A stretch of 64,000 nucleotides of DNA, from contig NZ_SOEZ01000075.1 of the NCBI RefSeq assembly GCF_004402215.1, positions 1-64,000 on the forward strand, written 5' to 3'. A model generated the notes under the pieces. The model was not told the DNA's origin and searched no databases. It saw only the letters and a list, made by a program, of their open reading frames with translations. Position 1 is the stretch's first letter, and the number at the start of each line of letters is the position of its first letter. Source of the stretch: Cryobacterium tagatosivorans. Its GTDB lineage: Bacteria > Actinomycetota > Actinomycetes > Actinomycetales > Microbacteriaceae. Of this stretch, positions 20,510 through 24,334 are shown in pieces. A program made the translations under genes and the position numbers.

Positions 20510-20542
20510 GGGACAGACGAATCTGTCTGTCCCATCTAGGGT
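20510..20542 (+). promoter_or_regulatory. Palindromic operator and -10 box upstream of the SipW/TasA-like operon
   Basis: GGGACAGAC (20510-20518), six bases, then GTCTGTCCC (20525-20533): a perfect 9-6-9 inverted repeat. It lies directly ahead of a -10-like TAGGGT (20537-20542), thus in the -35/spacer region of the probable promoter, 60 bases before the first gene. The placement fits repressor control. No regulator gene is adjacent. Confidence 0.5.
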
Positions 20543-20603
20543 TCTTACGCACAGCTCACCCACCCTGCAGCCCACGGCATCCACATGTCGCGAAAGGAAG
20601 TCC

Positions 20604-21158
20604 ATGAACAAGCTCCTCGTAGGTGCGATTGCCGGCGCTGCCGGCGTGGCCCTCCTTCTCGGCGGCGCCGGCACGTTCGCGCTCTGGAACGATTCCGCAG
20701 CCGTGGCCGGCGGAACGATCGTCGCCGGCAGCCTCGACGTCACCCCGACCGTGGCGGCCGGCTCCTGGACCGTCAACGGAGTTGCCCAGGGGACCCTCAG
20801 CGGTTTCAAGGCCGTCCCCGGCGACGTGCTCGCCTACACGAAGACGATGAATGTCACGGCGTCCGGCGACAACCTCCTGGCCACGCTGACCCTCGACCCG
20901 GCTTCGATCAGCCCGACGGTGGCCCTCGACGCGGAAGACCTGGCGCTGACCAGCTACCTCACCAGCACCGCCACGATCGCCGCCACGGCAACCGGGGCCG
21001 GCATCTCCGGCACCTCCCCGTCCTACTCCGTCAACGCGGGGACCTCGGTGGTGACGGTGACCGTCACCCTCACCTTCCCCAGCGGCGCCGGCAATGACGC
21101 CCAGCTCGGATCCGTCAAGCTCAACGATCTCAATGTGACGCTGAACCAGACCTCCTAG
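20604..21158 (+). CDS. TasA/camelysin-like secreted protein with SipW-type signal peptide
   Basis: A 184-residue exported protein. Residues 1-30 are an alternate-type signal peptide: MNKLLVGAIAGAAGVALLL, then GAGTFALWNDSAAVAGG, in which the T-x-A-L-W-x-D/N-S motif is typical of substrates of SipW signal peptidase (TasA, CalY). The rest is beta-rich, with a TasA-type repeat of strands (GTIVAGSLDVTP, VPGDVLAYTKTMNVTASGDNLLATL). TasA homologues form extracellular fibres. The cognate peptidase is the fourth gene of this operon. GAAAGGAAG precedes ATG 20604. Confidence 0.88.
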   Translation: MNKLLVGAIAGAAGVALLLGGAGTFALWNDSAAVAGGTIVAGSLDVTPTVAAGSWTVNGVAQGTLSGFKAVPGDVLAYTKTMNVTASGDNLLATLTLDPASISPTVALDAEDLALTSYLTSTATIAATATGAGISGTSPSYSVNAGTSVVTVTVTLTFPSGAGNDAQLGSVKLNDLNVTLNQTS

Positions 21159-21242
21159 CCAGGGCCCGTGTACCCGCCGACCCGACGGCGGGCACACCCC
21201 TGTGTCCAGCACCACCTCTCGTCTCTCGCCTCGCGGAAGGGG

Positions 21243-22994
21243 ATGTCGCGAATGCCGGAAACACCGCTGGCCGGGATCCTCTCGATCCGGTCGATGTTCA
21301 CGTCCATCGTGTCGTTCTCCGCCGTCATCTGCCTGGCCGTGGCCCTGGCCGGCGGCACCTACGCGCTGCTCAGCTCGAGCGCGTCCACCGCATCGGCGGC
21401 GACGATCACCTCCGGAACGGCTGCCCTCACGGTATCTCCCGTCGCCATGTCGACGACCCCGCTGTACCCGGGCCTGACGACGTTCGGCACGGCGACGGTC
21501 ACCAACGCGGGCGACGTCCCGCTCTTCCTGCGGGTAACGGGCCTCACCTCGCCCACCGCGTCGACCGCCTTCTCCCAGGCGCTCACCATCGGCGCGGGAA
21601 TCGCCGCGTCACCAGCCGCCTGCCTGGCCGGCAGCGTCACGCCGACGTGGACCGGAACCTTCGCGGCAGCCACGCGTGCGGCCCTCGGAGCATCGGTCGC
21701 CGCCCATGGCTCCGCCATCCTCTGCGTATCCCTGGGCCTGCCGGCGACCGCGCCCGTCGTCAGCCAGGGCCAGGCGGCCGCGAACTTCGGGCTCCTGCTC
21801 GACGGCTTCGCGGCCGGGAGCTGGACCGCCCTGACCGTCGGCGCCACGGCATCCGCTTCGTCGGGAGCCATCGGAATCAGCCAGGCCGGATTCGCCCAGC
21901 TGGCGGTCGCGTACTCGCCCGCCCAGCCGGCCGTGACCCGGGCGATCACCGTGACGAACACGGGAACGATCCCGGCGGGCTACACGCTTGCGCTGGGGGC
22001 GCTCTCGCCGACCACGCTCGCCACCACGGCCCTCGTCAAGACCTGGCCGGTCGCCTCGGCCGGCGCTGCGGACTGCGGCGCGTCGACGACGCCCCCGGTG
22101 ATGCCCGGCTGGAACTGGACCACGCTCCCCCCGCTGACCGGCACGCTCGCCGCCTCGGCCTCGGCGTTCTACTGCGTGCGGACGTCGCTCACCGCCGCCC
22201 AGGCCGCGGCCACCGATGGCCGCGCGATGGTCGCGACCCTCGCGCTGAGCTCGACCGTCGGCAGCTGGTCGGCCGCCGTCTCGGCAACCGTCGCCCAGGG
22301 CGTCCTCGACACGACCGCCCCGAGCGTGCCGGCCGCGCCCAGCGCGTCGGCCACAACCGACGCCCAGACCACGATCGCCTGGGCGCCGTCGACCGATGTC
22401 GGCGGAACGAAGGACTACGACGTCTACCGCGACGGCGTCCTCGTCCAGGCGGCCACCTCGAGCCCGTACACCGACACCGGGCTCAGCGTCGGCAAGGCCT
22501 ACAGCTACACCGTGCTGGCCCGCGACCTGCCCGGCAATGTCTCCGTCGCCTCTGCGCCGGTCACCGTGACCACCCTTGGGCTGGATTCCAGCAAGTGGTA
22601 CCGGGTCGTCAACCCGGCCGGCGGCCTGTGCGTCGCGGCCCCGACCACGGCCGTGACCGTCCAGCTCTGCACCGGCGGCACGAACCAGGCGTGGAAATTC
22701 GCCGTGAGCGGGTCGAACTACAAGTCCGTCTCGCGCTCCGCGCCGACGTCCGTCTGGGACACCTCGCTCGGCGGAAGCGGAAAGGGACCGGTCACGCTCG
22801 CGACGGATGCCGGCGGCGCCACCCAGCAGTGGCAGGTCGTCTCGCTGGGAACCGGAAGCGGAACCTTCCACCTCCTCAACGCCAAGAGCAGCGACTGCCT
22901 CGACACGACCACCGCGGCCGCGGGCACCCAGCTCCAGGTGAAGACCTGCAGCGCCGCGGCCTCGCAGACCTTCACCTTCACGGCGGTGCCCTGA
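21243..22994 (+). CDS. Large exported protein with fibronectin-III and ricin-lectin domains
   Basis: A 583-residue secreted protein. An N-terminal hydrophobic segment (about residues 20-45: FTSIVSFSAVICLAVALAG) resembles the SipW-type signal, ending GTYALLSSSASTAS. Residues ~50-350 are two beta-rich TasA-like modules with scattered cysteines. Residues ~365-450 form an FN3 domain (TAPSVPAAPSASAT...YDVYRDGVLV...YTVLARD). The C-terminal ~130 residues are a ricin-type beta-trefoil with Q-x-W repeats (NQAWKF, TQQWQV, SQTFTF), likely binding carbohydrate. ATG at 21243 follows GGAAGG; ATG 21252 is also possible. The lectin end suggests attachment to glycans. Confidence 0.8.
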   Translation: MSRMPETPLAGILSIRSMFTSIVSFSAVICLAVALAGGTYALLSSSASTASAATITSGTAALTVSPVAMSTTPLYPGLTTFGTATVTNAGDVPLFLRVTGLTSPTASTAFSQALTIGAGIAASPAACLAGSVTPTWTGTFAAATRAALGASVAAHGSAILCVSLGLPATAPVVSQGQAAANFGLLLDGFAAGSWTALTVGATASASSGAIGISQAGFAQLAVAYSPAQPAVTRAITVTNTGTIPAGYTLALGALSPTTLATTALVKTWPVASAGAADCGASTTPPVMPGWNWTTLPPLTGTLAASASAFYCVRTSLTAAQAAATDGRAMVATLALSSTVGSWSAAVSATVAQGVLDTTAPSVPAAPSASATTDAQTTIAWAPSTDVGGTKDYDVYRDGVLVQAATSSPYTDTGLSVGKAYSYTVLARDLPGNVSVASAPVTVTTLGLDSSKWYRVVNPAGGLCVAAPTTAVTVQLCTGGTNQAWKFAVSGSNYKSVSRSAPTSVWDTSLGGSGKGPVTLATDAGGATQQWQVVSLGTGSGTFHLLNAKSSDCLDTTTAAAGTQLQVKTCSAAASQTFTFTAVP

Positions 22995-22997
22995 CCG

Positions 22998-23726
22998 ATG
23001 ACGCCCACCCGGATGACGCGGCGGCTCCGAGGGGTGTCGCTCGTCTGCGCCATCACGGCGGCCCTGGTCGCAGGTGGGACCGTGCCGGGCGGGGCGGCCG
23101 AACGCGCAGCCGCGGCGCCGGCGGACGTGCTCTTCAGCACCGACGGCATCCACTTCTCCGCCGCCCTCGCCGGCGGCCTCTTCGACGACCTGGGGATGCT
23201 CGTGCCGGGGCTGTCGGCTTCGACCGATCTCTGGATCAGGAACCCGACCGGGGTTCCGGCCGCCCTGCGCGTCAGCGCGCGCGACGTGACCACGAGCTCC
23301 CGCGCGCTCGCCGACGGGGTGATGATGTCGGCCTGGGATTCGGGGACGGACGCGTCGAGGTCGTCCGTGCTGGGCGCGCTGTCGCAATGCCAGGTCCTGG
23401 TGCCCTCGCAATCGCTTGCCGCGGGGGCCACGATCAAGATGGTCCTGACCTTCACCATGGCCGACCTGCCCGACAGCGCCGGGCAGAGGGGGAGCGCGGG
23501 CCTCGGGTTGATGGTCGCCCTGCGCGACGCGGAAGCCGGCCCGTTTCCGCCGTCCGCGTGTGAGGATGATGGCGTGCTCATCGAGTCGGACCAGGGTCCC
23601 GGCGGCTCCCTGCCGACGCTCGAGGCCGACTTGACCGGCCCGCTCCTCCTCGCGGGCGGCCTCCTGGTCGGCGCCGGGGTGTTTTTCGTCGTCGGCCGAC
23701 GCAGGCGCGAGCGGGACGGGTCATGA
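22998..23726 (+). CDS. Membrane-anchored exported protein of the SipW cluster
   Basis: A 242-residue protein with a signal peptide (RLRGVSLVCAITAALVAGGTVPGGAAERAAAAPAD), a beta-rich extracellular part (FSTDGIHFSAALAGGLFDDLGMLVPG, STDLWIRNPTGVPAALRVS, ATIKMVLTFTMADLP) and a C-terminal transmembrane helix followed by RRRRERDG, giving a cell-surface anchor. It resembles the third protein often found beside actinobacterial SipW operons. No enzyme motif is present. Its stop overlaps the sipW start (ATGA), indicating strict coupling. A role as anchor or assembly factor for the two secreted partners is inferred. Confidence 0.72.
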   Translation: MTPTRMTRRLRGVSLVCAITAALVAGGTVPGGAAERAAAAPADVLFSTDGIHFSAALAGGLFDDLGMLVPGLSASTDLWIRNPTGVPAALRVSARDVTTSSRALADGVMMSAWDSGTDASRSSVLGALSQCQVLVPSQSLAAGATIKMVLTFTMADLPDSAGQRGSAGLGLMVALRDAEAGPFPPSACEDDGVLIESDQGPGGSLPTLEADLTGPLLLAGGLLVGAGVFFVVGRRRRERDGS

Positions 23727-24334
23727 GCGGCACCGAGAACGAAAACACCGTCCCGCCGCCCACCGAAGCGCGGCCGGCCCGGGGACTCTGGCACTCCATC
23801 GGCCTCGCCCTGAGCGGGGCGCTCCTGCTGCTCGTCATCGCCCTGGCCGTACTGCTCATCGTCGTTCCGAAGGCGACGGGAGGCCAGCCGCTCACCGTCC
23901 TGACCAGCTCGATGGAGCCGCGCCTTCCGCCGGGCACGCTCATCGTCGTGCGGCCGGTGGACCCGAGCGACCTCAGGATCGGCGACGTCGTGACCTACCA
24001 GATCCGGTCCGGGCAACCCGGCGTGATCACCCACCGGGTCATCGCCATCGCCTCCGCGTCGACCGGCGGCCGCACGTTCACCCTCAAGGGGGACAACAAC
24101 AGCGACCCGGATGCCGAGCAGGTGCGCGAAGAGCAGGTCCGGGGGCGCCTGTGGTATTCCGTCCCGCTGATCGGCTACCTGAACAACGTCATCGGCGGCG
24201 CGAACCGGGCCTGGGTCGTCCCGGGCGCGGCCGTGCTGCTCCTCGCCTATGCCGGCTACATGATCGCCGGGGGTGTGGTCGGCGCGGTGAAGAATAGGCG
24301 CAGTCCCGGGAACCCGGACCGGGGTCGTCTCTGA
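23723..24334 (+). CDS. sipW: Signal peptidase I of the SipW (ER) type
   Basis: A 203-residue membrane peptidase. An N-terminal transmembrane helix (~25-50) is followed by the catalytic serine block LTSSMEPRLPPGTLIVV near residue 62, the catalytic histidine block GVITHRVIAI (His in place of the usual bacterial lysine, as in ER-type enzymes), KGDNNSDPDAE, and a second transmembrane helix near the C-terminus (~170-195). It cleaves the alternate-type signal peptides of the preceding proteins at the outer face of the membrane. Last gene of the operon. Confidence 0.92.
   Translation: MSGTENENTVPPPTEARPARGLWHSIGLALSGALLLLVIALAVLLIVVPKATGGQPLTVLTSSMEPRLPPGTLIVVRPVDPSDLRIGDVVTYQIRSGQPGVITHRVIAIASASTGGRTFTLKGDNNSDPDAEQVREEQVRGRLWYSVPLIGYLNNVIGGANRAWVVPGAAVLLLAYAGYMIAGGVVGAVKNRRSPGNPDRGRL

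Follow-up and report, generated by a model that had tools for sequence, protein, structure and literature searches.

The stretch of DNA analyzed here (the window) comprises 64,000 nucleotides of Cryobacterium tagatosivorans, i.e., positions 1 to 64,000 of contig NZ_SOEZ01000075.1, and contains a SipW-type secretion operon of four genes, designated P1 to P4, whose second gene is an in-frame fusion of two genes that are separate in related genomes. The assembly of the source genome has a size of 3.78 Mb in 81 contigs. P1, P2, P3 and P4 are located head to tail on the + strand and are tightly packed, with 84 bp between P1 and P2, 3 bp between P2 and P3, and an overlap of 4 bp between P3 and P4. 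All four frames are open, and the long frames flanking the operon on both sides are located on the opposite strand. A scan for sigma-70 promoters gave 0 sites and a terminator scan gave 2 compared to 1.0 expected; neither scan was informative. A four-gene SipW-type operon is a real feature of this Cryobacterium-group genome, which bears out the single, tightly coupled operon proposed in a preliminary description of this DNA. Its features are the following:

20604-21158, + strand: P1 (184 amino acids), TIGR04089 SipW-exported protein with an ALWND signal, candidate main fiber subunit.
21243-22994, + strand: P2 (583 amino acids), TasA-like/FN3/ricin protein.
21243..21815, + strand: first part of P2 (residues ~1-191) with a signal peptide and the first TasA/BsaA-like domain; by alignment, this part corresponds to the stand-alone P2a gene in relatives.
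21807..21836, + strand: fusion junction in P2, where the P2a end LLLDGFAAG passes into the mature P2b start SWTA.
21816..22313, + strand: second TasA-like domain of P2 (residues ~192-357), which corresponds to the N-terminal P2b domain according to a profile-profile match.
22314..22583, + strand: FN3 domain of P2 (residues about 358-447).
22584..22994, + strand: ricin-type beta-trefoil of P2 (residues about 448-583) with three Q-x-W/F motifs.
22998-23726, + strand: P3 (242 amino acids), exported, TasA-like-related protein with a C-terminal membrane anchor, RRRR and a degenerate sorting motif (LPTLE).
23723-24334, + strand: P4 (203 amino acids), SipW/endoplasmic reticulum (ER)-type signal peptidase I with Ser63 and His104.

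In the 12 loci of the same genus that were read first (L017-L028; L stands for locus and G for genome), the stretch corresponding to P2 consists of two frames, P2a with 175-231 amino acids and P2b with 409-478 amino acids, each preceded by its own leader. P2b includes another TasA-like domain, a stretch matching FN3 (in 12 of 12 loci) and a tail that aligns to its end with the ricin part of the window protein; phmmer with the window ricin sequence finds four of the 12 loci. The distance between the P2a stop and the P2b start was determined for 12 split pairs, 11 from these loci (L022 excluded) and one from L036 of C. psychrotolerans, and amounts to 3 bp in ten pairs and 9 bp in one, with a 4-bp overlap in the remaining one. 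In the window, LLLDGFAAG continues straight into SWTA, and neither the P2a stop nor any part of the P2b signal peptide remains. The third-position GC content is 0.90-0.93 in each piece of the operon, including both sides of the P2 junction. In L036, the sequence AGCTG is found at the P2a stop and again at the start of mature P2b, and a deletion between short AGCTG-like repeats is a possible origin of the fusion.

Since some matches in the family extend backward from P2b, uninterrupted by a stop, to cover the final 25-45 residues of the P2a part (e.g., in G206, G331, and G127), we scanned 86 loci for stop-free frames with profiles of both P2a and P2b. The set included the window and loci of 56 of the 57 matching family genomes (G297 was left out), a few loci being second copies from one genome; stretches of about 4-18 kb were covered and frames containing N were skipped. 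The window alone has both domains in one frame, and in all 85 other loci P2a and P2b are present in separate frames or one of the two is absent. Among 88 P2 matches in the protein database (scoring was limited to the 7997 candidates with the most shared words), a coverage of P2 above 68% was found only for the window's own protein. The preliminary description had regarded the TasA-FN3-ricin architecture as the most novel part of the operon. This claim fell, and uniqueness of the domain order was rejected, since the FN3 profile and the ricin profile were each matched by 26 of 32 hand-picked P2b-type proteins from at least 9 genera. The unusual feature is the seamless in-frame fusion of P2a and P2b, not the pairing of FN3 and ricin domains.

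The predicted 583-residue TasA-like/FN3/ricin protein itself is present in the window, as two genes in relatives. Its C-terminal part matches ricin-type profiles above the cut-off (PF14200, 45.7 bits; PF00652, 45.1 bits) and shows the trefoil fold. Two C-x-D/A positions, whose Asp bears on sugar binding, were found, of which Cys552-Leu-Asp keeps the Asp and the other has Ala. The FN3 part reaches 13.5 bits by Pfam, below the cut-off of 25, but matches the FN3 domain of chitinase A1 (1k85) by sequence with an E-value of 1.9e-9 and folds as FN3 in the P2 model (TM 0.88 by target versus 1k85); the list of VIA-align matches for this model was nearly filled by FN3. In profile-profile comparison, the P2b family matches the P2a family with 97.4% probability (P 1.1e-11), P2a is linked to P1 with 92.8%, mostly across the signal region, and to P3 with 81% across the body. 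For PF12389 (camelysin/TasA), the P2a part of the window scores 15.1 bits compared to a cut-off of 22.5, and 23 of 32 P2a-family members match it at E-values up to 0.1 (best 2e-7); the BsaA family TIGR04090 is matched by 11 of the 32. Among proteins of about 113-359 amino acids, to which the search was restricted, 22 P2a homologs of 166-217 amino acids were found. A clean full-length alignment of P2 was not obtained, because MAFFT set the N-terminal domain of P2b onto the P2a domain, and the P2 model has therefore little alignment support at about residues 196-355. Two other assignments were discarded. The match to exoglucanase CbhB reached 39.2 bits compared to 1950, over a region that takes in the FN3 stretch. 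A CDtoxinA profile match in 7 of 32 P2b-type members does not indicate a toxin, as ricin-type trefoils overlap with that model.

P4 scores 88.5 bits with TIGR02228 (cut-off 51.85) and 82.8 bits with NF046067, the equivalog of Bacillus SipW, for which the cut-off is 190. Among solved structures, SEC11A and SEC11C are closest to it in sequence. When P4 was aligned with 34 relatives, among them two second copies of a locus, 34 of the 35 rows had Ser at the position of Ser63 (the remaining one has a gap) and all 35 had His at that of His104; we take these residues to be the catalytic Ser-His pair. This agrees with the dedicated ER-type, histidine-containing peptidase proposed in the preliminary description. 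As the genome contains one match each for TIGR02228, TIGR04088, and TIGR04089, all inside the operon, P4 is the only candidate for a dedicated peptidase that was found.

In some genomes of the Cryobacterium group, another SipW-type peptidase is encoded close to the operon. G008, G031, G034, and G367 each gave two P4 matches, and the first three of them also have three TIGR04089 matches apiece; the second peptidase was located at 11616-13438 in L021, 12933-13487 in L023, and 44-433 in L024. Moreover, six genomes of the genus contain a more distant signal-peptidase-like frame that is located ~1.7 kb upstream of the operon and resembles P4 weakly, with E-values of about 1e-9 to 1e-12 (L026 952-1776, L027 12174-12839, L028 11838-12347, L023 11381-12004, L024 1379-1894, and L047 9360-9863).

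P1 is a full-length member of the TIGR04089 family (148.9 bits, cut-off 60, residues 1-182), the "alternate-type signal peptide" proteins, which to our knowledge are known only as a sequence model. It also matches TIGR04088 (27.2 bits, cut-off 19) and contains the sequence FALWND. With the TasA equivalog NF046066, P1 reaches 10 bits compared to a cut-off of 450. When the P1 model was compared with solved structures by Foldseek, the TasA fiber (8aur) ranked first with an E-value of 0.014, prob 0.97 and TMq 0.41, and Pyrobaculum bundling pili (7ueg) followed at rank 43 with prob 0.21. Profile searches of PDB sequences with P1 and with P2a gave nothing significant.

P3 ends with a hydrophobic stretch followed by RRRR. 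The L-x-x-T-G motif expected ahead of the membrane stretch of a sortase substrate has been lost in the window, where LPTLE is found, and the sorting-motif profiles remain below their cut-offs (TIGR01167, 12.9 compared to 15.9 bits; PF00746, 14.3 compared to 20 bits). In alignment A1, which holds 9 of 16 proteins from the P3 search and 12 of 13 large loci (L028 was left out because its P3 is in two frames), L-x-x-T-G is present in 19 of 22 P3 sequences (10 LPxTG, 5 LAxTG, 4 LSxTG) and one more has IAHTG. The motif is missing in the window and in P0089, which is 90% identical to P3 and has LPTPE. A wider pattern scan of 24 P3 tails, including the second copies L033 and L034, found LxxTG in 19, among them L056, where the match is located upstream of an AFTGG; the remaining five have TG in another setting (e.g., AATG, AFTGG or IASTG). 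Two sortase-anchor profiles each match 17 of the 22 P3 members at E-values up to 0.1, and the source genome has two sortase matches, both on other contigs. These sequences suggest that P3 is probably attached to the wall by sortase in most relatives and, because of LPTLE, probably kept in the membrane in the window's lineage. Of the surface-anchored third protein described earlier, the anchored partner stood, whereas its character as a plain membrane protein did not extend to most relatives, in which P3 ends in the manner of a sortase substrate. No P3 relative was found on the viral contigs searched. In L028 (6124-6932, genome G017), P3 consists of two overlapping shorter frames and may be broken.

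The operon kind recurs in many Microbacteriaceae and is not peculiar to the source genome, which is left out of the following counts of other genomes. Within the genus, the TasA-like half of P2 has matches in 26 of the 56 other genomes, and profiles applied to the loci detected both P2a and P2b, in separate frames, in all 26. Plain sequence search had found both in 25 of them; G365 showed P2b only until the profiles revealed a weak P2a (L070). The family sample contains matches in 57 of the 298 other genomes, distributed over 25 of 85 genera with the source genus counted. All 12 genus loci that were read first contain the five-gene set (P3 being split into two pieces in L028), and the gene order was P1-P2a-P2b-P3-P4 in nine and P1-P2a-P2b-P4-P3 in three. 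In 15 further loci from 9 genera including the source genus, mostly representing the strongest family matches, P1, P2a, and P4 are always present, the N-terminal domain of P2b in 12 and P3 in 10. The P2b protein of C. psychrotolerans (L036 6280-8910) has 876 amino acids and six FN3 matches before the tail, so that the length of the lectin stalk varies widely between species. As regards the other alignments, A3 was made without an 80-amino-acid fragment of L021 and without L033 and L034, A4 contains 9 of 16 locus P2a genes and the 22 P2a homologs, and A8 leaves out L049, L052, and L059, in which P2b was not matched, as well as L033 and L034 as second copies and P0008, whose contig has the same length as that of L018.

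Taken together, we favor, with some reservation, the reading that the genes form a SipW-dependent surface-fiber operon with anchored, lectin-displaying TasA-like subunits. The preliminary description had likewise proposed a SipW-type operon in which TasA-like proteins occur together with a lectin-type tail and a surface-anchored partner, and the profile matches support this combination. In the suggested mechanism, P4 would act at the membrane and remove the special signal peptides from P1 and P2, and P1 would polymerize into a fiber, probably by donor-strand exchange. P2, as a subunit with two TasA-like domains, would display the FN3 spacer and the predicted ricin-type lectin on the fiber or at its end, presumably binding sugars. 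P3, whose leader appears ordinary by eye, would root the structure, through sortase to the wall in relatives and more likely through its membrane helix here. The in-frame fusion would imply that P2a and P2b are neighbors in the structure and occur in equal numbers, which bears on the putative order of subunits. Fiber formation and SipW dependence are suggested by analogy: according to the parts of the publications available to us, BsaA filaments of Clostridium perfringens need SipW for export (PMC7395162), and TasA fibers form by donor-strand exchange via an N-terminal donor strand (PMC9674648).

An alternative, which we consider rather unlikely, is that the proteins are secreted and anchored surface adhesins that do not polymerize, the TasA-like domains serving as plain beta-sandwich spacers and the lectin being carried by individual molecules. 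Two results of the second fold comparison weigh against fiber formation and for such adhesins: TasA, although first in Foldseek, is absent among 50 VIA-align rows for the P1 model, and the matches that do appear are general beta-sandwich domains from adhesins, pilins, and enzymes. The variable number of FN3 domains among P2b relatives, with six in L036, is also reminiscent of stalk-like adhesins. However, the pairing with a SipW-type peptidase and the links to TIGR04089, TIGR04090, and PF12389 point to fiber subunits, and the presence of several TasA-like proteins per operon would suit assembly better. The TasA-like character of P1 with its LWND-type signal, as stated in the preliminary description, appears likely from TIGR04089 and the first Foldseek match.

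That the operon is decaying in the window's lineage, with the fusion and the missing sorting motif as early damage to products that no longer assemble, appears improbable. P3 lacks an x-TG motif kept in 20 of 22 aligned sequences, P2b has lost its own signal peptide, and L028 shows P3 in two frames, all of which would fit decay. Yet the four frames are open with the uniform third-position GC content given above, the junction lies in frame between two domains with the signal peptide cleanly removed, and the equally motif-less P0089 retains the full 242 amino acids. Least probable is an assembly or sequencing error hiding two genes, since the clean loss of a stop and an entire signal peptide at domain boundaries would be an unlikely result of such an error and the contig measures 138.5 kb, even though the fusion is known from one sequence in a genome of 81 contigs and the AGCTG at both break points in the split L036 might mislead an assembler as well as recombine.

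A further-reaching extension of the fiber reading is that undescribed, sortase-rooted, lectin-bearing TasA-like pili occur across the Microbacteriaceae and that the fusion is a naturally occurring covalent link that replaces one contact between subunits. We regard this as speculative and doubtful. If true, the contact between P2a and P2b, formed elsewhere through a free N-terminal donor strand, would be a single chain here, and the fusion would identify neighbors in the fiber and show that the free N-terminus of P2b is dispensable.

Both the components and the type of system are already known, and according to the available parts of PMC7395162 and PMC9674648 SipW-dependent BsaA fibers occur in Clostridium, TasA-like ones in Bacillus, and related fibers in archaea. 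The lineage version and the fusion were not found in print: a search of the open-licence literature gave no paper joining SipW with Cryobacterium or with Microbacteriaceae, no fitting title on SipW/TasA/ricin signal-peptidase systems in actinobacteria (judged by the titles listed), and no paper under "alternate signal-mediated exported protein," "TIGR04088" or "alternate-type signal peptide." The impression that the system is undescribed for this lineage persisted. The recurring lectin-bearing version is a concrete candidate for actinobacterial adhesion to surfaces or sugars, and the fusion provides a ready hypothesis as to which two subunits touch.

The operon resembles tapA-sipW-tasA of Bacillus subtilis in having a SipW-type peptidase beside TasA-like exported proteins, with the TasA fiber as first Foldseek match of P1. 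It differs in the low equivalog scores of P1 and P4 and in the additional lectin-type subunit and anchored protein. With sipW-bsaABC of C. perfringens it shares the combination of sipW and a BsaA-type matrix protein in one operon, the latter through the TIGR04090 matches in the P2a family. No FN3-ricin protein is described there in the available part of PMC7395162, which also reports that no LPXTG-like sequence was found in BsaA and that its polymerization is independent of the neighboring srtB. The archaeal bundling pili AbpA/AbpX are likewise TasA-like donor-strand fibers (PMC9674648, available part); AbpX and the P2a family gave weak profile matches with E-values of 0.087 and 0.091, which are not significant. 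The split P2a and P2b operons of Cryobacterium and other Microbacteriaceae have the same genes, in the same order in nine of the 12 genus loci, and differ from the window in that P3 mostly keeps the sorting motif.
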